Source of the DNA: Actinomycetota bacterium
Lineage (GTDB): Bacteria > Actinomycetota > Acidimicrobiia > Acidimicrobiales > Ilumatobacteraceae
DNA: 34,544 bases
Assembly: GCA_027592925.1 (NCBI GenBank)
Contig: JAQCJO010000011.1
Span: forward strand, 1 to 34,544
Direction of reading: 5' to 3'
Position numbers and translations under genes: made by a program. This document shows positions 1 through 32,389 of this stretch, in pieces. The notes beneath the pieces were generated by a model. That model was not told the origin of the DNA. It did no database searches and saw only the letters and a list, made by a program, of their open reading frames with translations. How positions within the stretch are numbered: position 1 is the first letter of the stretch; the number at the start of each line of letters is the position of its first letter.

Positions 1-49
1 CATGCAAGTGAACTGGAATTGCGAGTTGCCGACTTCGCTGGGAGCCTGC

Positions 50-418
50 TCATGATTGTCCTCCTGGGGTGTACCCAACGGCCTCATGCAGCCGAGTCCG
101 TCGTCGCTTCATCGCCGGTCGGGCTGGAACCGAATCAGTTTTCGGCGCTGCCTCGTAGGTTGCGCCGACAACAATGCCCTCGGCCATTCCATACAACAGC
201 GGAAGGGCACCAGCAATCACTCTGCCGGTGCTATTGATGCGGTCGACGCCCGATTTGATTGGCTCAGCATTGCGCTTAATGTCCCAAACCACCTCGGCAC
301 AACCCTCCAATTTAGTCGCCACGCGGGCTAGCTGTGATCCGACTACAAACAAGTAGACGGCCAGTTCAGCAATGAGCAATGCGATCGCAACGACCGTCAA
401 CACAACCAAGAGCGTCAT
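50..418 (-). CDS. Small single-pass membrane protein, last of five downstream of coxG
   Basis: Unrecognised family; 122 aa. Residues 2-27 are a continuous hydrophobic segment beginning right after the start Met, followed by about 50 residues of predicted helix with Asn/Asp/Thr spaced between hydrophobics, then a basic, Pro-rich tail (around residues 95-122, containing MKRRR). I chose the ATG at 418 rather than an upstream in-frame start at 493, because it forms an ATGA stop-start overlap with the preceding gene and puts the membrane segment at the N-terminus. The tail makes it the longest of the five proteins. Its coupling to the cox operon suggests a membrane role beside CO dehydrogenase, but no function can be assigned from sequence. 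Confidence 0.7.
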   Translation of the reverse strand: MTLLVVLTVVAIALLIAELAVYLFVVGSQLARVATKLEGCAEVVWDIKRNAEPIKSGVDRINSTGRVIAGALPLLYGMAEGIVVGATYEAAPKTDSVPARPAMKRRRTRLHEAVGYTPGGQS

Positions 419-705
419 GATCGCACCTTGTCGAGAACGCGACCGAGGAACAAGTGATGTTCGAGTCCCTCGCTCAGAACCGCATCGACGCAATCACCCG
501 TCTTGGCAATCAGTGCGGTATCGGATGTGTTCGCCTCCGCCTGATCGAGCGTCGTGCGAATAACATCGACCCGTTTTTCGATCGTGTGCACGAGACTGAC
601 GAGCAGCGTCAGGAACGCTGCGACTGCGAGCAACACGATTAACGCGAGCCCAAGCGTTACCCACCAAAGACTTTCCTGAGTTGATGTCAAACCAAGTAGA
701 TGCAT
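415..705 (-). CDS. Small single-pass membrane protein, fourth of five
   Basis: Unrecognised family; 96 aa. A short N-terminal stretch precedes one membrane segment (about residues 14-38), followed by a charged helical tail beginning with TIEKRVDVIRTTLDQAEANT, which looks capable of coiled-coil formation. The gene starts only 2 nt after the preceding small gene's stop and overlaps the next one by 4 nt (ATGA), so translation is probably coupled. The layout resembles DUF948-type membrane-anchored coiled-coil proteins, but I see no signature that proves membership. Confidence 0.7.
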   Translation of the reverse strand: MHLLGLTSTQESLWWVTLGLALIVLLAVAAFLTLLVSLVHTIEKRVDVIRTTLDQAEANTSDTALIAKTGDCVDAVLSEGLEHHLFLGRVLDKVRS

Positions 706-707
706 GA

Positions 708-971
708 TCAGCCTCCCAGCCGCTTACGACCTCGGGTCAAACCTGCGACTATGGCATTGGCCGACTCGTTCGTGATGATGAGCTCGCGGAGCCCTGCCGT
801 GTGGTGTACCGATTTCGATAGTGAATCATTGATATCGGTCGCCTCGTCGCCAATCTGTTGGGCTAAACGAAGGATCGAGACTACAAGCGCGACGACCACG
901 AGGACTACAGCAAGGCCAACCACCCAACCAATTGTCCATCCGGCGTTCGATCCGTGAAGTAATGCTGTCAT
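708..971 (-). CDS. Small single-pass membrane protein, third of five
   Basis: Unrecognised family; 87 aa. A Gly/Val-rich membrane segment spans about residues 12-35, followed by a tail with acidic and Ser/Thr residues (DEATDINDSLSKS) and a basic C-terminus (RGRKRLGG). A start at 1088 is open, but the ATG at 971 is preceded by a GAGGGGG Shine-Dalgarno, avoids overlap with the upstream gene, and places the membrane span near the N-terminus. It lies 16 nt downstream of the preceding small gene. Function unknown; context suggests a membrane partner of the CO dehydrogenase locus. Confidence 0.68.
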   Translation of the reverse strand: MTALLHGSNAGWTIGWVVGLAVVLVVVALVVSILRLAQQIGDEATDINDSLSKSVHHTAGLRELIITNESANAIVAGLTRGRKRLGG

Positions 972-987
972 GTGGTCATCCCCCTCA

Positions 988-1215
988 TCAGACTGCATCA
1001 CAGAACTCGCGCACTGGTCGCAAGCTCTCGTTGACGGATGGTAACACGATGGGAACACTGCTCGTTTTCTCTGCAACAACTTCAACACCAGCGAAGACGC
1101 TGGCGAGCGTTTTCTTCACAGCAACTAAATGAAAAATGACTCGGATGAGTCCGAGTGCGGCGGCGGCGATGATCAGTGTTGCTAACACCAATGTGATTAT
1201 GGCAACGGTTGGCAT
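988..1215 (-). CDS. Small single-pass membrane protein, second of five
   Basis: Unrecognised family; 75 aa. A long hydrophobic segment (residues 4-32) opens the protein, then a helix of about 40 residues (LVAVKKTLASVFAGVEVVAEKT) ends in a short tail with a Cys near the C-terminus. The ATG has a GGAGAA ribosome-binding site 8-9 nt upstream. Spacing to the preceding gene is 16 nt. The pattern of membrane helix followed by regularly spaced hydrophobics resembles DUF948-type proteins, but that assignment is only a suggestion. Confidence 0.68.
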   Translation of the reverse strand: MPTVAIITLVLATLIIAAAALGLIRVIFHLVAVKKTLASVFAGVEVVAEKTSSVPIVLPSVNESLRPVREFCDAV

Positions 1216-1231
1216 ATTAAGTTTCTCCTAC

Positions 1232-1486
1232 TCAGCCCAGAAGTTTTCCAACGGAACCGGCGTAACGCACTGCACCGACAGCTACTTCGTGTATTGTGCT
1301 GTCGGTCTTAGCCAACAACTCTGGTACATCATTCACTTCTCCAATCAGTGCGACGCCACCGCTGAGAATGTCAGCAGAAGCTGCTCGAATCCGCTCAAGC
1401 GCCGCAAGCACCCTGTTGAGTAGCCCGACGAGGATTGGAACCACTGCTACTAGCAGTAGCAAGTTTCCGAAAGTCCAAAGTGACAT
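1232..1486 (-). CDS. Small single-pass membrane protein, first of five after coxG
   Basis: Unrecognised family; 84 aa. Residues 7-28 form a Leu/Val-rich membrane segment, followed by an Ala-rich helical tail (LAALERIRAASADILSGG) and a Gly-containing C-terminus. A strong GAGGAG ribosome-binding site lies just upstream of the ATG, and coxG ends only 12 nt before it, so it is almost certainly co-transcribed with coxG. Together with the next four genes it forms a continuous run of short anchored proteins of similar design, probably diverged duplicates or functionally equivalent subunits. Confidence 0.7.
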   Translation of the reverse strand: MSLWTFGNLLLLVAVVPILVGLLNRVLAALERIRAASADILSGGVALIGEVNDVPELLAKTDSTIHEVAVGAVRYAGSVGKLLG

Positions 1487-1498
1487 ATGCGCTCCTCG

Positions 1499-2083
1499 TT
1501 AGTTCGCCATTGATTGATATGGAAGAAAAAATCGCTTAAATACTCGGGTCAGAGCCATGCGTGCCGCTCGGACACCTATCGCCAATCCACTAGCTGATTT
1601 TGCGGCGGCAATTTGATCTGGGGATTGCCCGCGAGCGATCGCGCCAAGGCGAGCCTGCATCGTTGACGCAAAATCTCCGAGCAAGACTTGAGTGACATCG
1701 GAAACAAGCCCACGACCGTATTGTGCAGCAGCGCCAGAGAGTTGCAAATCCATCAAGACATCGACTTTCGTCCCAGTTGAAGTTGGGGTTAACGATGCGG
1801 TCAGCATCAGTGCGGCTTGACCGCGACCCTTTTCGTCAGCACCAGCAGCATCAACAACGATCCGCTTGGCACTGTCATTTCGTTCTTTAATCTGAGCAGA
1901 GCCAGCGAACTGCAACTTGACTGGTCCCAATTTGATCGCTACTTTGCCAACGTATTTGTCATCCCCTACTAGATCATTGAGTTCTGCGCCTGGCAAGCAC
2001 GCAGCAACTTGAGGAATATCTTGGAAGAATACCCATACGCTCTCAATCGGTTGGGCTACTTCAAAACCATTTTTAATCAGCAT
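1499..2083 (-). CDS. coxG: CoxG, SRPBCC-fold CO dehydrogenase accessory protein
   Basis: 194 aa. The N-terminal 150 residues match the CoxG family of the START/SRPBCC fold, with the family-like opening (NGFEVAQPIESVWVFFQD), the DIPQVAACLPGAEL segment and the GKVAIKLGPVKLQFAG strand pair. The last 30 residues are basic and aromatic (TRVFKRFFLPY), consistent with a membrane-touching tail. CoxG proteins accompany aerobic Mo-Cu CO dehydrogenases and are reported to bind quinone and pass electrons from the enzyme to the membrane pool. The ATG lies inside the end of the XdhC-type gene (7-nt overlap) and has an AAGGAGG Shine-Dalgarno at 2088-2094, four bases upstream. The five small membrane-protein genes follow directly. 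Confidence 0.9.
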   Translation of the reverse strand: MLIKNGFEVAQPIESVWVFFQDIPQVAACLPGAELNDLVGDDKYVGKVAIKLGPVKLQFAGSAQIKERNDSAKRIVVDAAGADEKGRGQAALMLTASLTPTSTGTKVDVLMDLQLSGAAAQYGRGLVSDVTQVLLGDFASTMQARLGAIARGQSPDQIAAAKSASGLAIGVRAARMALTRVFKRFFLPYQSMAN

Positions 2084-3015
2084 CTTGCCTCCTTCGAAAC
2101 ATGAGCGATCGGATCTTTTGCAAAAATATCACGGCAGCCCGAGCAGCAAAAGAAATATGTCACGCCATTGAATTCGACTACTTGATTCGTCCTGTCAGCG
2201 TTCACTGTCATACCACAGATGGGATCAACTACCAACTTGGTCGTCATTGCTGAAGAAGTAACGATTTTTCCAGCGGCACGCAACTGCACCAGTTGAGCCA
2301 AAACAGCCACGGCCATCTCACGATGATTTGTGTGTCCAAGGTCAAGCCCAGCCGGTACTCGTACATTTTCTAACAGGTCTTGAGCAATTCCCTTATCTGC
2401 CAAGTATCCAAGCACTGCTTCGCCCCGTCGCCGAGATGCAACCAAACCGACATAGGCAGGCTTGCCAGCGATTGCCAGCTCTGTGAGCTCTTCATCACCA
2501 TGTCCCTGAGTCGCAATTACCACGAGTGATCGTGCATCAAAATCGGCTGAAGAAAAATCTGTTCCATCAATTATCTCGGCACGCCAGTCAAGACTGACCG
2601 CTAAGTCGTGCAAAGTATGTGCCATTGGCGATCTACCGACAACCACGAGATGAGGTGTGATTTGCACAGGCTCAAGATAAATCTGTAGTGCGCCGTCACT
2701 TTGACACGAGATCGCAATTTGCGTAATGCCCTCAGCAATTGCACCCAACTGCTCAGATTCTCCAAGCATCAGGAGTCGCGGTTTACGATCGGCAAGCGCT
2801 CGTTGAGCCTCGCGCAGCAAAACTGGTTCGGCACACGCTCCACCAATCCAACCGTGGATTTCACCCGATGCCATCACAATCGCTCTTGAACCGTGCTGAC
2901 CAGATGATGGACCCTGACGCCAGACGACCGTTGCTAATACAAAGTCCTCACCGAGTTTCGCAAGCTCAACGGCTTTGCTCAAAACCGCCCAACTGTCCAG
3001 TGTCTGATCGCCCAT
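2077..3015 (-). CDS. XdhC/CoxF-family Mo-cofactor maturation factor with C-terminal YHS domain
   Basis: 312 aa. Residues 1-75 match the XdhC/CoxI N-terminal domain (TVVWRQGPSSGQHGSRAIV, GWIGGACAEPVL), and residues 120-235 match the Rossmann-like XdhC C-terminal domain (HLVVVGRSPMA, VIATQGHGDEE, YVGLVASRRRGEAV, LGHTNHREMAVAVLA). Proteins of this family bind and sulfurate molybdenum cofactor for insertion into xanthine-dehydrogenase-type enzymes. Residues 261-305 form a YHS-type domain (VVDPICGMTV, then CCSGC; Cys267, 290, 291, 294), a small metal-binding fold found in copper proteins. Start and coxL stop overlap as TAATG, implying coupling. Since CoxL carries a Mo-Cu centre, a metal-handling domain fused to the Mo-insertion factor is a suggestive combination. 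Confidence 0.85.
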   Translation of the reverse strand: MGDQTLDSWAVLSKAVELAKLGEDFVLATVVWRQGPSSGQHGSRAIVMASGEIHGWIGGACAEPVLLREAQRALADRKPRLLMLGESEQLGAIAEGITQIAISCQSDGALQIYLEPVQITPHLVVVGRSPMAHTLHDLAVSLDWRAEIIDGTDFSSADFDARSLVVIATQGHGDEELTELAIAGKPAYVGLVASRRRGEAVLGYLADKGIAQDLLENVRVPAGLDLGHTNHREMAVAVLAQLVQLRAAGKIVTSSAMTTKLVVDPICGMTVNADRTNQVVEFNGVTYFFCCSGCRDIFAKDPIAHVSKEARC

Positions 3016-5396
3016 TAGTCTTCCGTCTTCACTGGCGGCATGCCCGAAATATCGCGTCGAGTTGTAAAGGCCTCATATACCCTGTCTGGCAACAATGGCA
3101 TGTCAATATTGCGCACGCCAGTTCCCTTGAGTGCATCCATCACTGCGTTAACAAACGCCGCAGGACCACCCACGGTGGCGCACTCGCCAATACCTTTGGC
3201 TCCGATCGGATGATGCGGACAAGGTGTTACAACTTCGTGCAATTCAAAACCAGGCGTCTCCCAAGCTGTCGGCAGTAGATAGTCCATGTAGTTCGACCCA
3301 ACGCAGTTTCCTTCGGCATCAAATGTAATGAACTGCATACTCGCCATTGCATACGCCTCGGTCAAACCGCCCATGATCTGTCCTTCTACGATCATCGGAT
3401 TAATGCGCACTCCACAGTCATCAACTGCCACGACATTAAGTACATCCCACACGCCAGTCCCTGGATCAACCTCAACTGTTGCGATGTAACAGGCAAACGG
3501 CCATGTCAAGTTTGGAGGGTCATAGTAGGCAGTGTTCTCCAAGCCCGGCTCTAGACCATCTGGCATATTGCTGTAAGCGGCATTTGCACAGTCCTGAATC
3601 GTCACTCCGCGATCTGGCGAACTGCGGACATAGAAGCGGCCGAGTTCCCACTCAACATCCTCTTCAGAAACTTCCAACAAGTGAGCAGCGAGCTTGCGTG
3701 CTTTCGCTCGAATCTTGCGCGAGACCATTGCTACAGCCGCACCTGCAACAGGGGTACTGCGCGAGGCATAAGTGCCCATCCCGAATGGCGCGGTGTCAGT
3801 GTCACCTTCTTCGACTGTGATGTCGTCGGCAGGAATCCCTAGTTCATGAGCAACAATTTGTGCCCACGTAGTCTCATGACCTTGACCCTGTGATTTTGCA
3901 CCCGTGCGCAAGATCGCCTTACCTGACATATGCACGCGCAATTCGGCAGAGTCAAACATCTTGATTCCAAGAATGTCGTACTCGCGACTATTGCCAGCAC
4001 CCAATGGTTCGGTCATCGTCGAGATACCGATACCGAGTAGGCGGCCCCGCTTCTTCGCCTCTTCTTTTTGTTTCAAAAAGTCTTTGTATCCAATGGCTTC
4101 AAGACCTACGTCAAGACATTTTGCATACTGTCCAGAGTCGGTAAGGAATCCGAATGCGGTGCGATGCGGGAAGTCTTCATCGCGCACAAAGTTAAGACGA
4201 CGGAACTCGGCTTGATCCATGCCCAAATCATCGGCTGCAGCCTGCACCATGCGCTCCTGAAAAAACATCGCTTCTGTGACACGGAACGAGCAACGATATG
4301 CCACTCCACCCGGCGCTTTGTTGGTGTACAGTCCACGCGCTGTCAAGTGCGCCGCAGGAATGTCGTAACACGCAAACGCTGAGTGCATCAAACCAATCTT
4401 GAATTTGCTTGGCTGCGCATCCGAAAAAAATGCGCCATGATCAGAGTCGGTGTGCATCCGCACGCCAAGAATTTTGCCATCTTTGCGCAATGCCATTTCG
4501 CCACGTAGATAGACATCGCGTCCAAAGCCGGTGGAAATGAGATTGCCCGTCTTGTCTTCAATCCACTTCACTGGTCGTTCTAAGAGAATTGATGCAAGAA
4601 TCGATGCAACATAGCCTGGGTAAACAGGAACCTTGTTGCCAAAACCTCCTCCGAGATCAGGTGAAACAATCCGGATCATGTGTTCTGGAAGTTCTGCCAC
4701 CATGGCAACAGCAGCACGAATAATGTGCGGCGCTTGGGTGGTCATGTAGACGGTCAGTTTCGAAGTCGCTCGATCAAAGTCAGCAATCGAGCCGCACGTC
4801 TCCAACGGGGATGGGTGCGAGCGCGGATAGTGAAGTTCAAGTTTGGAAACTACGTCAGCCTGCGCAAAAGCTTTTTCGGTGCCATCCTTGTCACCCACTT
4901 CCCAATCAAATACGACATTGTCGTGCTGGTTCTCTTTGTCGTCACGGATCAATGGTGCACCTGGCGCCATAGCCTGAACCGGATTGACAACCACTGGCAA
5001 TGGTTCGTAGTCAACAACTATCGCCTCGCACGCGTCTTTGGCAATGTAAGGATCATCTGCGATCACGCACGCAACTTCTTGACCCTGAAAACGAACTTTG
5101 TCGGTTGCCAAAACTGCTTGGGTGTCATAGGACAACGTCGGCATCCATGCCAAGTTGCGACTGGCCATCATCTCGCCAGTCATCACGAGCCGTACTCCTG
5201 GAATCGCCCAGGCTTTACTGGTGTCTATTGATTTGATCCGAGCATGCGCGAGCGGACTGCGCAAAATCTCCATGTGCAGCATGCCAGGCAACACAATGTC
5301 ATCAACATAATTGCCCTTACCACGGATAAATCGATTGTCCTCTACTCGGCGTCGACTTGCACCCATTCCGCCAATCTTGATTTCATCTAGCGACAT
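3015..5396 (-). CDS. coxL: Form I aerobic CO dehydrogenase large subunit (Mo-Cu)
   Basis: 793 aa, close to the usual 800-810. Catalyses oxidation of CO with water to CO2, passing electrons through CoxS and CoxM. The diagnostic form I active-site loop AYRCSFR is at residues 366-372; Cys369 is the expected copper ligand (Cys388 in the Oligotropha enzyme). Other family marks are the GGGFGNK cofactor loop (249-255), ETCGSIADFD near 199, and the C-terminal GAKGIGECATVGGPAAFVNA with the catalytic Glu. The M-S-L gene order is also that of form I clusters, unlike the S-L-M order usual in form II. An AAGGGAT ribosome-binding site precedes the ATG. High confidence that this is true CO dehydrogenase rather than a xanthine-dehydrogenase relative. 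Confidence 0.96.
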   Translation of the reverse strand: MSLDEIKIGGMGASRRRVEDNRFIRGKGNYVDDIVLPGMLHMEILRSPLAHARIKSIDTSKAWAIPGVRLVMTGEMMASRNLAWMPTLSYDTQAVLATDKVRFQGQEVACVIADDPYIAKDACEAIVVDYEPLPVVVNPVQAMAPGAPLIRDDKENQHDNVVFDWEVGDKDGTEKAFAQADVVSKLELHYPRSHPSPLETCGSIADFDRATSKLTVYMTTQAPHIIRAAVAMVAELPEHMIRIVSPDLGGGFGNKVPVYPGYVASILASILLERPVKWIEDKTGNLISTGFGRDVYLRGEMALRKDGKILGVRMHTDSDHGAFFSDAQPSKFKIGLMHSAFACYDIPAAHLTARGLYTNKAPGGVAYRCSFRVTEAMFFQERMVQAAADDLGMDQAEFRRLNFVRDEDFPHRTAFGFLTDSGQYAKCLDVGLEAIGYKDFLKQKEEAKKRGRLLGIGISTMTEPLGAGNSREYDILGIKMFDSAELRVHMSGKAILRTGAKSQGQGHETTWAQIVAHELGIPADDITVEEGDTDTAPFGMGTYASRSTPVAGAAVAMVSRKIRAKARKLAAHLLEVSEEDVEWELGRFYVRSSPDRGVTIQDCANAAYSNMPDGLEPGLENTAYYDPPNLTWPFACYIATVEVDPGTGVWDVLNVVAVDDCGVRINPMIVEGQIMGGLTEAYAMASMQFITFDAEGNCVGSNYMDYLLPTAWETPGFELHEVVTPCPHHPIGAKGIGECATVGGPAAFVNAVMDALKGTGVRNIDMPLLPDRVYEAFTTRRDISGMPPVKTED

Positions 5397-5411
5397 GTCG
5401 TCAGATCCCTT

Positions 5412-5942
5412 CTAGTTCGCAGCCTGGTTGTTGATTTTTCGAGCAGCCCACATCACTGACTTCACGATGTTTTGATAGCCAGTGCATCGACAAAGATTGC
5501 CAGACAAGGCCCAGCGAACTTCATCTTCTGTTGGATCTGGGTTCTCATCTAAAAGCGCTTTAGCAGTAAGCATCATCCCTGGTGTGCAAAACCCACACTG
5601 AAGACCGTGCTCATCTTTAAAACCTTCTTGGATTGGATGTAGCTCACTAGCGGTTGCAAGACCCTCAACAGTCATCACATCATGGCCATCGGCTTGAATC
5701 GCGAGCATCGTACAACTCTTGATGGGTTGACCGTCAAACAACACCGTACAAGCGCCGCAATTACTGGTGTCGCAACCGGTATGTGTCCCAGTCAAATTGA
5801 ATCCCTGACGAATCAAGTGAGCAAGCAACAACCGGGGCTCAACGTTTGCAGAACGATTCTCCCCGTTAATGCGAATCGTTACTTTTCGGACCGGGACATT
5901 GCTTGCTTGGTCCGGAAATACTTCTTCGTTTAAGCTTGTCAT
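5412..5942 (-). CDS. coxS: CO dehydrogenase small [2Fe-2S] subunit
   Basis: 176 aa. Carries two [2Fe-2S] clusters that move electrons from the Mo-Cu site to FAD. The plant-type ferredoxin domain has Cys57, Cys62, Cys65 (CDTSNCGAC) and Cys77; the C-terminal helical domain has Cys116, Cys119 (CGFCTPGM) and Cys151, Cys153 (LCRCTGYQ). I chose the ATG at 5942, one base after the coxM stop (TGAGATG), over a TTG at 5969 that would overlap coxM by 26 nt; GAGAGG about 10 nt upstream fits this start. The 16-residue N-terminal extension before the ferredoxin fold is slightly long but common in form I CoxS. Confidence 0.95.
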   Translation of the reverse strand: MTSLNEEVFPDQASNVPVRKVTIRINGENRSANVEPRLLLAHLIRQGFNLTGTHTGCDTSNCGACTVLFDGQPIKSCTMLAIQADGHDVMTVEGLATASELHPIQEGFKDEHGLQCGFCTPGMMLTAKALLDENPDPTEDEVRWALSGNLCRCTGYQNIVKSVMWAARKINNQAAN

Positions 5943-5943
5943 C

Positions 5944-6819
5944 TCAGGCTGCCCTCTCCATTGATTCAACTACTCCGCTAAGAATCCGGACCACAAATGT
6001 TTTTACAATTTGACGCTTATATGAAGCACTACCACGGTGATCGCTTCGTGGTTGAGCCGCTTGCGCCGCAAGATCTGCTGCATGTGCGATGCTTCCTGCT
6101 GTCAATGGTGCTCCCACCAAAGACTGTGCAGCAGCAGTTGCATTAATCGTCGAGCCTCCCACCCCTGTCAGACCGATTCCCGCACGAATGATCAAGCCCT
6201 GAGAGGATTCGACAGCAACAGCAACGCCTGCTGTTGCAAAATCACCAACTCGTCGTTCAAGTTTCAGATATCCACCGTTGGGAATTCCTTTCGGCGCAGG
6301 GACGATTGCCTCTATCGCAATCTCGTCGAAAGCGAGCATGTTCTGAAAGGGTCCCTTGACGAAATCGGCAGCTGGGATCGATCGGCGTCCATTAGGTCCT
6401 TGGGCTACAACGATGCCACCGAGTGCCATCATCACCGATGACCAGTCGCCCTGCGGATCGGCATGGCACAAAGATCCCACCAGCGTTCCACGATTTCGAA
6501 CTATTGGATCTGCAATGACAGGTGCCGCCGCCGCCATCGTCGGTTGGTGCGCCATCAGTAATGATGACTTTTCCAAATCCGAATGTCGGCATAATGCACC
6601 AATATGAATCGTTCCGTCAGCATCAACAGTCAGATAATCCAGACCGGGAATATTATTGATATCTACAATCATCTCTGGGGCAGCAAACCGAAGTCTCATC
6701 ATCGGGACCAAACTCTGTCCGCCAGCAAGAATTTTTGCCTCACCACCACCTTGGTGAAGAAGGGCAATCGCTTCCGCAATCGACTTGGGTGATTCGTAGT
6801 TAAACCGAGTCGGGTACAT
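5944..6819 (-). CDS. coxM: CO dehydrogenase medium FAD-binding subunit
   Basis: 291 aa, normal for the family. It belongs to the vanillyl-alcohol-oxidase-type FAD subunits of molybdenum hydroxylases. The two diphosphate-binding loops are at residues 32-36 (AGGQS) and 112-116 (TLVGS, where many relatives have TIGGS/D), followed by CHADPQGDW. The C-terminal CO-dehydrogenase flavoprotein domain starts around residue 175. It takes electrons from CoxS and is the likely exit point to the quinone pool. AGGAG seven bases before the ATG is a strong ribosome-binding site. Confidence 0.95.
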   Translation of the reverse strand: MYPTRFNYESPKSIAEAIALLHQGGGEAKILAGGQSLVPMMRLRFAAPEMIVDINNIPGLDYLTVDADGTIHIGALCRHSDLEKSSLLMAHQPTMAAAAPVIADPIVRNRGTLVGSLCHADPQGDWSSVMMALGGIVVAQGPNGRRSIPAADFVKGPFQNMLAFDEIAIEAIVPAPKGIPNGGYLKLERRVGDFATAGVAVAVESSQGLIIRAGIGLTGVGGSTINATAAAQSLVGAPLTAGSIAHAADLAAQAAQPRSDHRGSASYKRQIVKTFVVRILSGVVESMERAA

Positions 6820-6846
6820 GGTGCGCTCCTTTGTCTGACTTTGTGC

Positions 6847-7086
6847 CTATGTCTTAGTGGAACCAGGATCGGCAATTGCCTCTGGCATCGAATCCGCATC
6901 TGGATCAAGTCGCGGTTCTTGATGCGGCGGCCATGGGCCTCGCACCGGCTGACTCGCTACTTTGAGATGATCAATGATTTGTGGCCATGCCCAAACAGTT
7001 GGACTCTTGCCAACTTTCGGAGCATTTTCTACAAGTTCAAACAGCCTTGGGTTACCACGACTATGACCAGAAGATTCAATCGGCAT
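6847..7086 (-). CDS. Possible small protein encoded ahead of coxM
   Basis: 79 aa, no recognised family. The protein is hydrophilic with a Trp/Pro-rich middle (TVWAWPQIIDHLKVASQPV) and a Pro/Asp-rich end (PWPPHQEPRLDPDADS). It lies between the cox promoter and coxM, ends 27 nt before coxM, and its codon usage resembles neighbouring genes. Against it: the only nearby purine tract is a run of G directly before AAATG, a poor Shine-Dalgarno with very short spacing, and the opposite strand is also open. It may be the first gene of the operon or a translated leader. Confidence 0.45.
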   Translation of the reverse strand: MPIESSGHSRGNPRLFELVENAPKVGKSPTVWAWPQIIDHLKVASQPVRGPWPPHQEPRLDPDADSMPEAIADPGSTKT

Positions 7087-7141
7087 TTCCCCCCCAGGGC
7101 AAGTACTTAGATATGGCGTCTAGCGGACACCAGTGCATGCG

Positions 7142-7170
7142 AAGGTACCAGCCGAATCAATGGCTGTCAA
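7142..7170 (-). promoter_or_regulatory. Predicted promoter of the cox operon
   Basis: On the minus strand a perfect TTGACA (-35, 7165-7170) is followed after exactly 17 bp by TACCTT (-10, 7142-7147). It is the only strong promoter-like pair I see between fda and coxM. The predicted transcript would start near 7135 and leave about 50 nt before the 79-aa ORF and about 315 nt before coxM. The -10 is weak (3 of 6), suggesting a need for an activator or an alternative sigma factor; that is inference. Confidence 0.5.
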
Positions 7171-7210
7171 GTTGGAGGACCGATGTTTACAAAAATACCA
7201 ACCCAGGATC

Positions 7211-7255
7211 AGTCATGTCTAGTAAATGACTCAGATGGCCCATCAGCAATCTGAG
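7211..7255. other. Two overlapping small inverted repeats downstream of fda
   Basis: AGTCAT...ATGACT (7211-7216/7226-7231) and CTCAGAT...ATCTGAG (7230-7236/7249-7255) lie just after the fda stop and about 40-90 bp upstream of the predicted cox -35. They could be a weak transcript end for fda (no clear T run) or regulator sites for the cox promoter. The remaining bases of the 6820-7261 gap hold only the small ORF and the promoter. Confidence 0.3.
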
Positions 7256-7261
7256 AACTGC

Positions 7262-8149
7262 CTAGCTATTTGACGCGTCGTAGATTCCTTGAATTGCCGA
7301 GTTGAGCAATGCATCAAACTCTGCATCGGACTGCTTGGCCGACAAACCCTCTGTCAACGCGCGAGAGAAACTCGCAATCACACCAGCATTCTTTGCCAAT
7401 TGCTTGTTGGCATCTTCACGGCTGTAACCACCCGACAACGCCACCACTCGCACGACGCGTGGATGCTTCACCAACTCGGCAAAGAATCCATCGAGGTTTG
7501 GCAATGTGAGTTTGAGCATCACGTTCTGATCAGCACTCAACTTGTTTAGTTCCGACAAAATTGCGGCCTTTAACAAGACCTCAGCCTCAGCCTTTTGTGG
7601 GCTGTTGATATCTACTTCAGGTTCAATGATCGGGACAAATCCGGCCGCGATTATCTGCTTGCCAACTTCAAACTGCTGACGTACAACGTCGTAAATACCT
7701 TTTTCATTTGCCAACTTGATCACTGAACGCATCTTGGTGCCAAACACACCGTGCTTCTTGGCCTTTGCTAAGAGCGCATCCAATTCGGGCATCGGCTTCA
7801 TCACTTGCACGCCATCTTGATCGTCGGCCAAACCTTTGTCGATCTTGAGGAAAGGAACGACGCCCTTGTTCTCCCACAAAAATTCCGCTGCACCCTTGCC
7901 GTCAATTGTGCGGTTCATGGTCATCTCAAACAAGATGGCACCAAGCACTCGCTCTCCAGAAAAAGCCACACTCTTGATGATGCGCGAGCGCATTGCATGA
8001 ATGAGGTCGAACATTTGCTCGTCACCCGAGTACTCAGACTCTAAGACTCCGTAGAGCTTGAGTGCTTTTGGTGTGCTACCACCGCTCTGATCGAGGGCCG
8101 CTATAAAACCCTTGCCACTTTGCACTTTGGCCATCATGTCGTTATTCAT
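7262..8149 (-). CDS. fda: Fructose-bisphosphate aldolase, class I
   Basis: 295 aa, the usual length of the bacterial class I (Schiff-base) aldolases seen in Staphylococcus. It interconverts fructose 1,6-bisphosphate with dihydroxyacetone phosphate and glyceraldehyde 3-phosphate in the cytoplasm. Family signatures: [19 protein letters not shown] (residues 12-30), ILFEMTMNR (72-80), [11 protein letters not shown] (98-108), [18 protein letters not shown] (174-182), MLKLTLP with candidate Schiff-base Lys213, and [11 protein letters not shown]. It is the only glycolytic gene in the window and stands alone, 82 bp from the alkylsulfatase gene and upstream of the cox promoter region. Confidence 0.95.
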
Positions 8150-8231
8150 ATTCTCGCTCCGTTTCGGCTACCAGAAGCATAATTCGCCAAAGATTCAAAA
8201 TAGAAATTCGCAGGTTACCTTCCGACCCCTA

Positions 8232-10112
8232 TTAGGGCTCAACGATTGCAAAACCTGTAACAAACTTTTCTAGGTTGCCAAAGATATTCAAGAGTGCTGC
8301 TGCGTCACCATCCACAGTGATGGCCCCGTCGGTCATTTCTTGAATAAAGGTCGTGGCTTGCGTAATCACGTCTATCAATGTTTCTCTTTTGATGTGAACC
8401 GTTGCATCAGCAGCATCGTCGTGACGCCCCTGAGTTGATACAAGCGTTCTATTTGAAAGAGCCAACACCCATGACTGATCCGGCGTTCCTGCCATGTCGG
8501 TGAAGTTCCAATTAATCGTGGTTGCAAGACCACCGACCTGCTCTTGCATCAACCGCACCGCAAGTGTGTCAAACACCTGACCAATTGTCATCGCTCGCGT
8601 CATTCCGCGCGCCCGTGCACCAACCTCTACTGGCGGTGGCGGGCCCTGGCGCAATTCTTGAGCACCCATCAGATACGCATTGCGAAATGTTGCCGACTCC
8701 GCTTGGTACCCAAGTTGTTCGAGCGTGTCTGCTTGCAACTCGCGGGCCTTGACATTGGTGGGGTCTGCAAACACCGCATGATTGACGAGTTCTGCGACCC
8801 AGCGATAGTCGCCAGCATCAAACGACTTCTGTGCTGATGCCAGCAGAGCATCCATTCCGCCGGCCAGATCTACATATCGCTTGCCCGCATCGGTCGGTTG
8901 CAACTTATTGAGGTTGGCCGGGTTGCCGTCATACCAACTGAGATATCGCTGATACACGGCTTTCGAGTTGTGCACGAGGTCGCCATAGAAACCACGCGTG
9001 TGTTCATTTGCCAAAAACTCTTCTGGCATCTTAAGAAATTCGGCAATCTCGAGTGGCGTCATACCGCGATTCGCACAACGCATGGTCTGGTCATGTATCC
9101 ATCTATAGAGGTCACGCTGCAAGATAAGAAATTCGCGAACATCATCAGTCCCCCATCGCGGCCAGTTGTGAGACGTAAACAAGATCTTGGTGTCCGCACC
9201 AAACAACTCGATGCTTTCATTGATGTATTTCGACCAAGAAAGTGCATTACGCACTTGCGCTCCACGAATTGGCACGAGGTTGTGCATCGTGTGCGAGCAA
9301 TTCTCTGCCATGCACAACCAACCAAAATCTGGAAAGAAGAAATTCATCTCGGCTGGTGCTTCGGTCTCGGGTGTCATCTGAAACACAATTCGCACACCGT
9401 CAATGATCATTTGCTCACCAGTGAAGGTGATGTCGTGAGTTGGCGCCACTAGTGACGGCGCTGCTGTTGGCACTGAGTTGCCAAGACCTGAGTCAACATG
9501 ACCTTCTGGACTTGCTGGAAGGAGTAGACCAAATTGATATGTTGATCGTCGGCCCATTGCCGGACCCGCAATGACGTTTTCGGCAATTGCCTCGTACAAA
9601 AACCCTTCTGGTGCAATGACGACGCACTTCCCAGCATCCACATCTGCTCGCGTTGTCACTCCGAGTACTCCACCAAAATGATCGGCATGCGAATGCGTGT
9701 AGATCACCCCAGTGACGGGGCGCTCACCAACATGTTTATTGATCAATTCGAGTGATGCTCGAGCCGTGTAGTCGCTCGTCAGAGGGTCAATAACTACCCA
9801 ACCTTTGTCGCCGCGAATAAACGTGATGTTCGAAATGTCGTATCCGCGCACCTGCCATACGCCGTTCGCAACTTCATACAAACCATGATGCGCATTGAGC
9901 GTTGCGTGGCGCCACAAGTGTGGGTTTACGGTGTCCGGTGCGTCGCGACCATCTCGCAGGAAATCGTATGCGGCAGTGTCAATTACTTTGCGACCCTCGT
10001 CGTCAACGATCTGATCTTCGGTGCGTGCAGCAATAAAGCCTCGCGTGACGCGCTCCAGATCTACCAAATCAAATACTCGACCTTGTGTCGAGCTATTGAG
10101 TCCTTGCGTCAC
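8232..10112 (-). CDS. Alkylsulfatase-type metallo-beta-lactamase (SDS hydrolase family)
   Basis: 626 aa. Such enzymes cleave alkyl sulfate esters to alcohol and sulfate with a two-zinc site. The metallo-beta-lactamase domain carries HSHADH at residues 140-145 (His140, His142, Asp144, His145), a later AENCSHTMHN segment and TSHNWPRWG with the distal ligands. A helical dimerisation domain follows (about 370-500), then an SCP2-like C-terminal domain. This three-part layout and length match SdsA1/YjcS/BDS1. Unlike several of those proteins it has no signal peptide, so it probably acts in the cytoplasm. The start is a GTG with no clear Shine-Dalgarno. It could also act on other sulfate esters. Confidence 0.88.
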   Translation of the reverse strand: MTQGLNSSTQGRVFDLVDLERVTRGFIAARTEDQIVDDEGRKVIDTAAYDFLRDGRDAPDTVNPHLWRHATLNAHHGLYEVANGVWQVRGYDISNITFIRGDKGWVVIDPLTSDYTARASLELINKHVGERPVTGVIYTHSHADHFGGVLGVTTRADVDAGKCVVIAPEGFLYEAIAENVIAGPAMGRRSTYQFGLLLPASPEGHVDSGLGNSVPTAAPSLVAPTHDITFTGEQMIIDGVRIVFQMTPETEAPAEMNFFFPDFGWLCMAENCSHTMHNLVPIRGAQVRNALSWSKYINESIELFGADTKILFTSHNWPRWGTDDVREFLILQRDLYRWIHDQTMRCANRGMTPLEIAEFLKMPEEFLANEHTRGFYGDLVHNSKAVYQRYLSWYDGNPANLNKLQPTDAGKRYVDLAGGMDALLASAQKSFDAGDYRWVAELVNHAVFADPTNVKARELQADTLEQLGYQAESATFRNAYLMGAQELRQGPPPPVEVGARARGMTRAMTIGQVFDTLAVRLMQEQVGGLATTINWNFTDMAGTPDQSWVLALSNRTLVSTQGRHDDAADATVHIKRETLIDVITQATTFIQEMTDGAITVDGDAAALLNIFGNLEKFVTGFAIVEP

Positions 10113-11351: not shown

Positions 11352-12230
11352 ATGACTACATCTCAAAACCCTCAATGGGGCACCCCCGACATGGTTTCGC
11401 AACTCGAGCGAGTGCTGGTGCGCACGCCGACAATAGTTGGAAAATTTGTAGAGGAAGGTTTCTGGCGCCAACCAGATACTTCAGCATTGCTTACCGAACA
11501 CAAATCGTTTACCGAATTGCTTGAAAGTCTTGGTTGCACAGTTGATGTTGCGCCACCAGTTGATGGACTCGTCGATGCCGTCTACATGCATGACCCAATG
11601 ATCATGACACCCCATGGTGCAATTTTGTTGCGCATGGCCAAGTCAGTGCGTTCACCAGAGCCCGCAGAGTTTCGCAAGGATCTCGAGAGGCTTGGCGTAC
11701 CAATCTTGGGGCAACTCACCGACCCAGCATTTGCCGACGGCGGCGACAAGGTATGGCTCGACGCAAAGACGCTATTGATTGGTCATGGCTACCGCACCAA
11801 TCAAGCTGGCATCGACCAAGTGCGCGCGCTGCTCGCACCACATGGTGTCGATGTTTTTTCGTTTGACCTTCCTCACTACGAAGGCCCAAGTGCGGTACTT
11901 CACCTCATGAGCGTGCTCTCGCCTATCGCGCACGACAAAGCCGTTGTATACGAACCACTCGCACCCGTGCGCTTTCTGCAGTTTCTCGAATCACGAAACA
12001 TTTCGTGGTTTAGCGTGAGTGAAAAAGAAATGCTGACCCAAGGCAGCAACATCTTGACCATTCGACCGAATGTTGTGGTGCTCGCAGCGGGCAACCCAGT
12101 TATCGAGGCTCAGTTGCTGGCTGCAGGTGTTGAAGTGCATCTTTTTAATGGTGACAATGTGGCAGTTAAAGGCGACGGCGGTCCAACATGCCTCACCGCT
12201 CCACTACTTCGGATAACAAGCAATGGCTGA
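11352..12230 (+). CDS. ddaH: Dimethylargininase / amidinotransferase-fold hydrolase
   Basis: 292 aa. Matches the DDAH branch of the guanidino-modifying enzymes, which hydrolyse methylated arginine to citrulline and methylamines. Visible active-site elements: MHDPMIMT (Asp81 region), ADGGDKVWLD around 128-137, His184 in VLHLMSVLS, and the nucleophile Cys280 in GGPTCLTAPL. AGGGG lies a few bases before the ATG. It is divergent from the lipoprotein gene and followed five bases later by an SDR gene, with which it is probably co-transcribed. An arginine deiminase-like or other amidinohydrolase substrate cannot be excluded from sequence alone. Confidence 0.82.
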   Translation: MTTSQNPQWGTPDMVSQLERVLVRTPTIVGKFVEEGFWRQPDTSALLTEHKSFTELLESLGCTVDVAPPVDGLVDAVYMHDPMIMTPHGAILLRMAKSVRSPEPAEFRKDLERLGVPILGQLTDPAFADGGDKVWLDAKTLLIGHGYRTNQAGIDQVRALLAPHGVDVFSFDLPHYEGPSAVLHLMSVLSPIAHDKAVVYEPLAPVRFLQFLESRNISWFSVSEKEMLTQGSNILTIRPNVVVLAAGNPVIEAQLLAAGVEVHLFNGDNVAVKGDGGPTCLTAPLLRITSNG

Positions 12231-26401: not shown

Positions 26402-26473
26402 ATTTGTTTCTTCTTGCTTCTTGGCATGCAAATTTGGCAGACTCATGGATCAACCCCAAATGAGGAGCACCCC

Positions 26474-27094
26474 ATGGCCGCAAAAAAGAAAATCAAAAAA
26501 GCAAACAAAAAAACTGCTAAAAAAACAGCCAAGAAGGCTGTAAAGAAATCAGCAAAGAAGAATTCTAAGAAAGTCGCAAAGAAAAAAGTCGCCTCGAAGA
26601 CAACTGTAACTCTCGGCGGCAACAAAGTTTCGGTAAGCGGCAAACTTCCAAAGGTTGGATCACGTCTTCCAAAATTTGCACTCACCACTGGCAACTTGAG
26701 CGAGATCGGCAACTCCGATATCAAAGGCAAGCGCGTCATTTTCAACATCTTCCCTTCAATCGACACGCCAACATGTGCAACATCAACTCGCACATTTAAC
26801 GAGATTGCATCAGGCTTGACCAACACCGATGTCTACTGTGTTTCCGCAGACTTGCCGTTTGCACAGGGTCGCTTCTGTGGATCTGAGGGCTTGGCAAATG
26901 TGAAGACCGCTTCGTCGTTTCGCTCCAACTTTGGCTCCGTGTTTGGCGTCAACCTCACGAGCGGTGTACTCAAAGGTGTCTTGGCACGAGCAGTCGTCGT
27001 CGTTGATGCAAATGGCAAAGTGCTGCACACTGAGCTCGTCAGCGAAATCGCCAACGAGCCAAACTACTCAGCAGCAATCAACGCGCTGAAATAA
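26474..27094 (+). CDS. tpx: Thiol peroxidase (Tpx) with lysine-rich N-terminal tail
   Basis: 206 aa. Residues 45-206 are an atypical 2-Cys peroxiredoxin of the Tpx type, reducing peroxides with thioredoxin. Peroxidatic Cys101 is in FPSIDTPTCATSTRTFNE and resolving Cys135 in DLPFAQGRFC; the 34-residue spacing equals that of E. coli Tpx (61 and 95). The additional first 42 residues contain 21 lysines in a strict KKxx pattern, like histone H1 and actinobacterial HU tails. The ATG at 26474 has a clear GAGGAG site and includes the tail, so the tail is translated. The tail could bind DNA or RNA, suggesting a nucleoid-associated antioxidant; this is inference. Confidence 0.92.
   Translation: MAAKKKIKKANKKTAKKTAKKAVKKSAKKNSKKVAKKKVASKTTVTLGGNKVSVSGKLPKVGSRLPKFALTTGNLSEIGNSDIKGKRVIFNIFPSIDTPTCATSTRTFNEIASGLTNTDVYCVSADLPFAQGRFCGSEGLANVKTASSFRSNFGSVFGVNLTSGVLKGVLARAVVVVDANGKVLHTELVSEIANEPNYSAAINALK
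26495..26584 (+). repeat. KKxx tetrapeptide repeat in the tpx tail
   Basis: Codons 8-37 encode about seven and a half consecutive KKxx units (KKAN, KKTA, KKTA, KKAV, KKSA, KKNS, KKVA, KK), a 12-bp period rich in A. The units differ at the DNA level, suggesting selection on the protein pattern rather than recent slippage. Confidence 0.85.
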
Positions 27095-31621: not shown

Positions 31622-32389
31622 ATGGCACGCGATCTTCCACAACTCCGCGAGAAGATCGATCAGATTGACGCGGCAATCGTTGCTTTGCTCGCACAGCGCA
31701 TGGAAGTGTGCAGAGAAGTAGCAGAAGTGAAAGCCGGTTCATCAACCGCAGTTATTCAGCCGCAGCGTGTGCGCGAAGTACTGACAACGCGACGCCAATG
31801 GGCGATCAATAGTGGGGTTGACGCCGACTTTGCCGAACAGATATTTCGTATAGTGCTTTCCGAAACCCATCGCATAGAAGTTGCACACGATCGCGGAAGT
31901 GTCGAGCCTGTAAAAATTGCAGACACACTGCTCAGCGCTCTCGACACTGTTGCCGTGCGCATCGATCATGTTGTCGTTGCAGTCGTTGATCTCGCATCTG
32001 CTTCGGCATTTTTGTCATCGATCGGATTTGCGGTGCGACCTACGGAAGATGCCGACATCGTGACAGCCGATGCCGGTGGCGTCACTGTTGTGCTCGTTGG
32101 CCCAGGCAATGACCCTGCGGTGCGTGCACACTTGAATGCTCATGGTTCGGGCGTGCAACACATCGCTATTGAGGTGCTCAATGCCGGCTTCGTGCAACAA
32201 GCACTTGCAGCAGCAGGCATTCCCCTACTGACCGACGTAGTGGTTGACGCAGCAGGACACGAACAGCTTTTTACAGTTGTCGACCCAGCAACAGGCGTGC
32301 AGTTGGGCTTCATCAGTCGCACTGGTCATCGCGTACCCATTAGCGGCCACAATGTGCGAACGCTGTTTTCTGCTCTCGGCAACATCTAA
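31622..32389 (+). CDS. Chorismate mutase (AroQ-type) fused to a VOC domain
   Basis: 255 aa. Residues 1-90 fit the all-helical AroQ chorismate mutase: LREKIDQIDAAIVALLAQR, EVCREVAEVKA and QPQRVREVL, with Arg9, Arg26, Lys37 and Arg49 matching E. coli positions 11, 28, 39 and 51; the Gln88 equivalent looks like Glu86. Residues 112-235 form a vicinal-oxygen-chelate domain (VRIDHVVVAVVDLASASAFL, GVQHIAIEV, VVDPATGVQLGF). Metal ligands His116 and His180 are present, but the usual third ligand Glu appears replaced by Gly229. Starts directly after the ribE TAA with AGGAAA upstream. Possibly links prephenate/tyrosine metabolism to a dioxygenase-like fold; function unproven. Confidence 0.82.
   Translation: MARDLPQLREKIDQIDAAIVALLAQRMEVCREVAEVKAGSSTAVIQPQRVREVLTTRRQWAINSGVDADFAEQIFRIVLSETHRIEVAHDRGSVEPVKIADTLLSALDTVAVRIDHVVVAVVDLASASAFLSSIGFAVRPTEDADIVTADAGGVTVVLVGPGNDPAVRAHLNAHGSGVQHIAIEVLNAGFVQQALAAAGIPLLTDVVVDAAGHEQLFTVVDPATGVQLGFISRTGHRVPISGHNVRTLFSALGNI

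Follow-up and report, generated by a model that had tools for sequence, protein, structure and literature searches.

The window analyzed here is the whole of contig G000:C39, 34,544 bases long, from a genome of 1.66 Mb. Its minus strand carries, in order, coxM, coxS, coxL, an XdhC-like gene, coxG, five small genes and the beginning of a sixth. We letter the small genes a to e, counting from coxG outward (the initial annotation listed them from the far end), and call the sixth f. By coordinate, the features are as follows.

1..53, minus strand: f, first 17-18 codons, the rest lying beyond the contig end; ATGA overlap with e at 50-53
50..418, minus strand: e, 122 aa; a membrane helix followed by one long helix; cox-type C-terminal extension; by profile comparison a paralogue of b
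415..705, minus strand: d, 96 aa; a membrane helix and a tail ending in the cox-type GLEHHLFLGRVLDKVR; by profile comparison a paralogue of c and a
708..971, minus strand: c, 87 aa; a membrane helix and an amphipathic tail
988..1215, minus strand: b, 75 aa; a membrane helix and an amphipathic tail; by profile comparison a paralogue of e
1232..1486, minus strand: a, 84 aa; a membrane helix continuing as one helix, with a second helix beyond a break
1499..2083, minus strand: coxG, 194 aa; amphipathic C-terminal tail, without a membrane helix; PF06240 match
2077..3015, minus strand: XdhC/CoxF-like protein; C-terminal cysteine motif similar to a YHS domain (identified by eye)
3015..5396, minus strand: coxL, form I CO dehydrogenase (CODH) large subunit; TIGR02416; AYRCSFR
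5412..5969, minus strand: coxS, small [2Fe-2S] subunit; assigned from its position and from homologues in other loci
5944..6819, minus strand: coxM, flavin subunit; assigned from its position and from homologues in other loci

The initial annotation had described five consecutive small genes (122, 96, 87, 75 and 84 aa) directly after coxG, and all five open reading frames were found there on the minus strand, with the same spacings of 12, 16, 16 and 2 nt and the same 4-nt ATGA overlap read from the sequence. Its statement that none of them belongs to a known cox accessory family was likewise borne out, as no match to a-e rose above the Pfam or NCBIfam cut-off. CoxL scores 1113 bits against the TIGR02416 cut-off of 991 and contains AYRCSFR in its translation, and thus shows both marks of a form I enzyme, the score and the AYxCSFR loop. 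CoxG exceeds the PF06240 gathering score (59.6 versus 22.2 bits, E 3.7e-16) and resembles the CoxG chain 8uds_D (E 1.5e-28). No hydrogenase large subunit was found in the window's genome (G000) at E 1e-90. In a near relative (L008, 12938-14527), f is full-length and encodes a protein of 529 aa with an internal repeat and no Pfam match. The same relative has an N run between a and b (11558-11760, genome G017) with the same 19-base stretch on either side; this is probably a gap in the scaffold whose edge was duplicated, and no extra gene. A simple scan of window positions 1-8300 for signs of separate transcription gave 8 terminator-like sites where 8.1 were expected, including one within gene b, and no promoter-like sites inside the array.

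Cox-type d was used to search named genomes; this yielded 185 relatives, of which the best 80 were analyzed as named loci; as several of these are the same contigs as loci in the genome survey described below, the two surveys must not be summed. Among the best 80 of the 185, coxG-a-b-c-d-e is contiguous in 72; seven of the other eight are interrupted by contig ends (L166, L167, L198, L204, L207, L212 and L222), and one (L185) has two a-like matches. CoxL was matched in 70/80 of these best 80, CoxG in 74/80 and hydrogenase subunits in 0/80, with the XdhC-like gene in the same position in most and f directly after e in 13/80. Still within this set, all 389 of the 389 measurable adjacent pairs among coxG and a-e share a strand, and the median gaps along coxG-a-b-c-d-e are approximately 11.5, 12, 12, 2 and -4 nt, as calculated from start codons chosen by script. 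This arrangement exceeds chance. Comparison with L009 gave dN/dS ratios of 0.18 for b, 0.19 for c, 0.08 for d and 0.12 for e, while dS was saturated for a, coxG and coxL, which therefore have no ratio. The carriers among the best 80 are mostly Acidimicrobiia and other Actinomycetota assemblies, including four named-strain records (L186, L209, L214 and L231), and coxM-S-L-xdhC-coxG-a-b-c-d-e is present in the cultured carriers Nocardioides soli DSM 105498, Nocardioides mangrovi GBK3QG-3, Planosporangium flavigriseum TBRC 198 and Kineosporia sp. A_224. Four records (L164, L165, L170 and L212) hold actinobacterial-type coxG-a-e contigs under the titles Acidobacteria, Candidatus Poseidoniales archaeon or Bifidobacterium breve, which are likely binning or naming errors.

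Each of the five proteins was said to carry one membrane helix. This stands insofar as every one has a hydrophobic helix beginning near its N terminus; it is less sure for e, as a second hydrophobic stretch exceeds the script threshold in 27/84 cox-type sequences of e (and in 5/84 of b), and this stretch could form a membrane hairpin instead of a stalk. Positive residues follow the helix in 404/410 cox-type and 107/107 hydrogenase-type sequences (charge and helix counts were made on profile-matched segments), and an N-out/C-in topology is therefore predicted. The amphipathic moment of the tail lies above that of shuffled sequences in 75/75 cox-type a, 80/84 b, 76/84 c, 48/83 d and 81/84 e, so that the excess for cox-type d is at most weak. 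AlphaFold2 modeled a single helix for e (residues 2-86; mean pLDDT 80) and two helices for a (residues 2-52 and 54-83; mean pLDDT 87), with the low pTM values (0.40 and 0.36) expected of single helices.

Several residues are conserved in both of the enzyme systems discussed below: W14 (101/101), N59 (99/101), T60 (101/101) and H83 (92/94) of d, T61 of a (103/104) and N62 of e (99/101). None of the five families keeps a cysteine in more than 60% of its sequences, which leaves no conserved cysteine for a redox centre. C-terminal extensions are present on cox-type d and e and absent from the hydrogenase forms, with R106 and R107 of e, for example, found in 79/79. Near the end of the tail of d, E79 (95/97) and H83 stand four residues apart and are kept in CODH- and hydrogenase-associated proteins alike; the pair is a candidate contact for quinone or a partner protein. 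Weak matches linked b to DUF948 (6/22 members, best E 0.0015) and c to DUF2561 (6/17 members, best E 0.00035); we did not count these as membership in either family. Searches of the PDB with profiles of a, b, d and e gave only chance-like or pattern-level matches, and no Huc chain was among them at E up to 1. The profiles of b and e matched designed coiled coils and helical barrels (for example 8qkd_A for b, E 1.4e-7, and 8a3k for e, E 2.5e-10). These matches arise from heptad-like repeats in b and e and not from homology, and they hint at a coiled coil in these two proteins.

An all-against-all profile comparison, which the initial annotation had proposed, separates the five proteins into two groups. 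The hhalign scores of 63.8 for c-d, 69.2 for b-e, 51.1 for a-d and 40.3 for a-c exceed both the reversed-profile null (best of 25: 26.7) and tail-permuted controls. At the level of sequence profiles, the module thus consists of two paralogous sets, a/c/d and b/e.

Searches with a across 61 relatives, 296 genomes of the class and 346 genomes of the phylum gave a confident match in 51 distinct genomes, leaving out four weak phylum matches (G358, G443, G624 and G650, E 1.3e-5 to 9.7e-5) and one weak class match (G258). Reading of the contexts by tblastn and profile search of fetched stretches placed the module near CODH genes in 21 of the 51 and near structural or accessory genes of hydrogenases in 25, with five in other or ambiguous contexts. 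Two of the CODH-side genomes are more distant cases, at approximately 6 kb (G432) and 4 kb (G492) from the CODH genes, and some of the hydrogenase-side contigs, such as those of G532 and G444, show accessory genes only. As for the remaining five, the module adjoins CoxD/CoxE-like ORFs (named by eye) in G453 and lies at contig ends in G434 and G570; the neighborhood in G469 was left out of the context reading; and in G056 the five genes are on a 9.3-kb contig (L013) on which no cox or hydrogenase gene was matched. Two extra copies (L082 and L085) adjoin ORFs that resemble HypD and HypF by eye.

The array had initially been tied to CO dehydrogenase, a link to be refuted by homologues lying mostly away from cox genes. 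Taken literally, this applies to about half of the genomes (25/51 at hydrogenase genes); 21/51 have the module at CODH genes. As homologues of all five proteins also accompany [NiFe]-hydrogenases, we rejected a cox-specific array. The other home of the module is, however, again a soluble trace-gas dehydrogenase that needs a path to quinone, and the idea of a docking function is therefore strengthened. It is very improbable that a-e merely hitch-hike in these operons or represent a general cluster of small membrane proteins. The clear copy away from both enzymes in G056 would fit such a cluster, as would the weak DUF948 and other small-membrane-family matches of b and c, which show how easily such resemblance arises; against it, the module stands beside CODH or hydrogenase genes in 46/51 genomes, the named loci (the best 80 of the 185) keep one gene order and dN/dS is low where measurable.

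The hydrogenase loci closely match gene layouts described in PMC9561532, according to which group 1l [NiFe]-hydrogenases have five short transmembrane proteins, HylTM1-5, encoded between the subunit genes, and group 1m clusters encode two small single-helix proteins. On the strength of this match in gene layout, we refer to six loci (L139 and L144-L148) as 1l-like and to those with TPR and BirA-like genes as 1m-like. Five loci of one family (L139, L144, L145, L146 and L148) have the order hydS-c-d-e-a-b-hydL, and the sixth 1l-like locus (L147) has c-d-e-a-b beside hydL on a contig that ends before hydS. All five proteins were found in these six loci with profiles built from cox-type and 1m-type members, the E-values in L139 being 3e-14 for a, 9e-14 for b, 2e-10 for c, 9e-17 for d and 1e-11 for e. 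In six 1m-like loci (L079, L080, L084, L127, L128 and L132), c-d-e are divergent and upstream of hydS, with a-b downstream. The loci labeled 1m from their neighboring genes (n = 22) contain all five in 10 cases, a and b alone in 10, abc in one and abcd in one, and several of those with only a and b sit on cut contigs.

HylTM1-5, as described in PMC9561532, and a-e are both sets of five short predicted membrane proteins; those of the window are consecutive and single-helix (with a reservation for the second hydrophobic stretch of e), and homologues of all five lie between hydS and hydL in the order c-d-e-a-b, a likeness drawn from description and position. The window set differs from the published one in following coxG in a CODH operon, in the order a-b-c-d-e and in a genome with no hydrogenase large subunit at E 1e-90, and only cox-type d and e bear C-terminal extensions. 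The window's a-e are homologous in sequence to the hydrogenase five and are themselves no hydrogenase part. The group 1m proteins resemble a and b in their length of 82-92 aa, their single helix and their position beside TPR, BirA-like, CooC-type and HybD-like genes; they differ in number, being two in print, in contrast to all five in 10/22 of the loci that we labeled 1m from neighbor genes. The name HylTM was found in a literature text search only in PMC9561532, and the terms searched in the excerpts of PMC10305171 gave no small membrane proteins.

Among the matches listed by text searches, none mentioned the a-e genes together with cox. Ortiz et al. 2021, reportedly the earlier source on hydrogenase small membrane proteins, and Kropp et al. 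2025, a study of CoxG, may have such a mention.

Three long proteins, h, i and j, turn up repeatedly close to the module at both kinds of enzyme locus, cox and hydrogenase (L013 1599-4310, L083 5210-7356, L087, L125, L126, L131, L134, L135, L137 and L149). Each combines a membrane helix with a long stretch of low-complexity helix or coil. Their N-terminal parts show weak profile matches to a, c, d or e, and it is possible that they are enlarged members of the a-e design.

Among the 346 phylum genomes, a was found in 9/9 genomes whose CoxL is at least 70% identical to that of the window and in 9/43 with CoxL at 55-66% identity, where it lies at cox genes in only 3/43 (G432, G530 and G578). On the hydrogenase side, 17/18 of these phylum genomes gave a match to a when they had a large subunit at least 50% identical to that of L012, the exception being G653, against 4/24 with less similar large subunits; three of those four copies lie at cox or cox accessory genes (G424, G432 and G453) and one at a contig end (G434). 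The enzymes also occur without the module. L150 (G040:C78, 7974-19056) has form I cox genes beside a [NiFe]-hydrogenase approximately 50% identical to that of L012, and a-e are absent from the fetched 19.9-kb stretch. None of 25 other form I cox loci carries a-e; these comprise 20 CoxL places at 56-66% identity without an a match there, plus L150-L154, and as a chosen sample they show that b-e are missing too and give no independent frequency. Four plasmid loci of the classic group 1h hydrogenase (L089-L092) gave no match to a-e, and membership of the module in classic group 1h operons is accordingly not supported.

These distributions also bear on whether a-e might form a membrane-bound assembly or maturation complex for metallo-enzymes, outside the working enzyme. 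The hydrogenase-side modules stand among CooC/MinD-type ATPases, maturation proteases and a NifU-domain protein, and the cox-side modules near MoxR/vWA genes (identified by eye), as would be expected for such a complex. However, the two enzymes have unrelated cofactors (Mo-Cu in one, NiFe in the other), the module is dispensed with by classic group 1h hydrogenases and by other form I CODHs, and its genes separate those of the two structural subunits in the 1l-like loci. We therefore regard a maturation role as improbable.

In a tree of joined a-e from 35 loci, the 1l-like set falls in one clade (100/100), and the cox sets fall in two: 16 rows with the order a-b-c-d-e, and three with c-d-e-a-b (L136, L140 and L149), among hydrogenase rows. 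An approximately unbiased (AU) test did not reject a single cox clade (p 0.36) and gave p 0.043 for a single hydrogenase clade. On a simple reading of this tree, there would have been one or two transfers between the enzyme systems, in either direction.

CoxG itself may differ between loci with and without the array. Of the 73 CoxG tails that could be read in array loci (among the best 80 of the 185), all 73 end in an amphipathic motif of RFFxPY type and none has a membrane-helix-like stretch, whereas 4/11 tails from array-lacking loci have such a stretch; as the other 7/11 are also without it, the link from array to unanchored CoxG runs one way only, and the contrast in tail sequence is suggestive only. 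The CoxG proteins of three array-lacking loci (L249, L251 and L253) have one C-terminal membrane helix, and the L253 protein is closely related to the CoxG chain of PDB 8uds (E 8.6e-76), which we take to be the Mycobacterium smegmatis complex. In G056, CoxG is encoded on a different contig (L153) from the module and has a membrane-helix-like tail. In the window, coxG directly precedes a; CoxG is a soluble-fold carrier, to which a-e are unrelated.

The main rival to a quinone-handling function is that a-e only hold the dehydrogenase near the membrane, with quinone handled by CoxG alone in CODH and by another route in the hydrogenases. One-helix proteins without a conserved cysteine would suit a pure anchor, as would the presence of CoxG in 74/80 of the named loci (the best 80 of 185 relatives). 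PMC13240472 describes CoxG as a menaquinone-binding membrane protein that delivers electrons, which would make a second quinone device unneeded for CODH. Five different, strictly ordered and strongly conserved proteins nevertheless seem beyond the needs of an anchor, and array-lacking CoxG obtains its anchor from a single C-terminal helix, as in the three loci above. Moreover, no CoxG match was found in the hydrogenase loci whose genes were examined, leaving the module as the sole candidate for a quinone route there. On balance, we consider a pure anchor unlikely, though more probable than a maturation complex.

Homologous sets of ordered proteins with one helix pattern accompany two unrelated soluble gas dehydrogenases. 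Both enzymes share the need to reach quinone, and a dock that includes a path to it would explain the association most economically. The initial annotation had suggested a hetero-oligomeric membrane dock or quinone-handling patch, and this fits the gene order after coxG, the predicted N-out/C-in helices, the long amphipathic tails, the lack of a conserved cysteine and the unanchored CoxG. We think it probable that a-e are a single module, homologous to the HylTM1-5 set and recruited to form I cox operons, that serves as membrane base, stalk, dehydrogenase dock and menaquinone route. Its assembly, the stalk, docking and the passage of quinone are the parts that we infer. The five helices would assemble into a hetero-oligomeric membrane base, with the tails forming a coiled-coil stalk, at whose cytosolic end the soluble dehydrogenase would dock, and menaquinone would leave the lipid phase by way of the stalk, either inside it or alongside. 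For CODH, the unanchored CoxG would dock by its conserved amphipathic tail and ferry quinone to the enzyme, with the C-terminal extensions that cox-type d and e carry as the likely docking surfaces.

Such a plan would resemble that of HucM, in which, according to PMC10017518, the stalk of the hydrogenase Huc consists of amphipathic helices and is hydrophobic inside. The analogy with this group 2a hydrogenase concerns the proposed job, in which an amphipathic coiled-coil stalk would join a soluble dehydrogenase to the membrane and let menaquinone pass. HucM is a single protein of approximately 188 residues acting as a tetramer, whereas the stalk proposed here would be built from five different short proteins of 75-122 aa each.

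How electrons pass from soluble gas dehydrogenases to membrane quinone is a live question for the uptake of atmospheric CO and H2, and a conserved five-protein set serving Mo-Cu and NiFe enzymes points to a shared solution. The relatives of a-e at both enzymes suggest a shared membrane part for feeding trace-gas electrons into respiration. More tentatively, and with somewhat less than even expectation, a five-subunit helical barrel may be a general quinone conduit of aerobic trace-gas oxidizers, having evolved with one dehydrogenase and been recruited once or twice by the other, with the CoxG shuttle inside or atop it in the CODH form.

Two other genes of the window have unusual architectures, as judged by eye. 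One (26414-27094) encodes a thiol-peroxidase-like protein whose N-terminal tail is rich in lysine and alanine and resembles histone H1, and the other (31622-32389) a protein in which a chorismate-mutase-like N terminus is fused to a glyoxalase/VOC-like domain.
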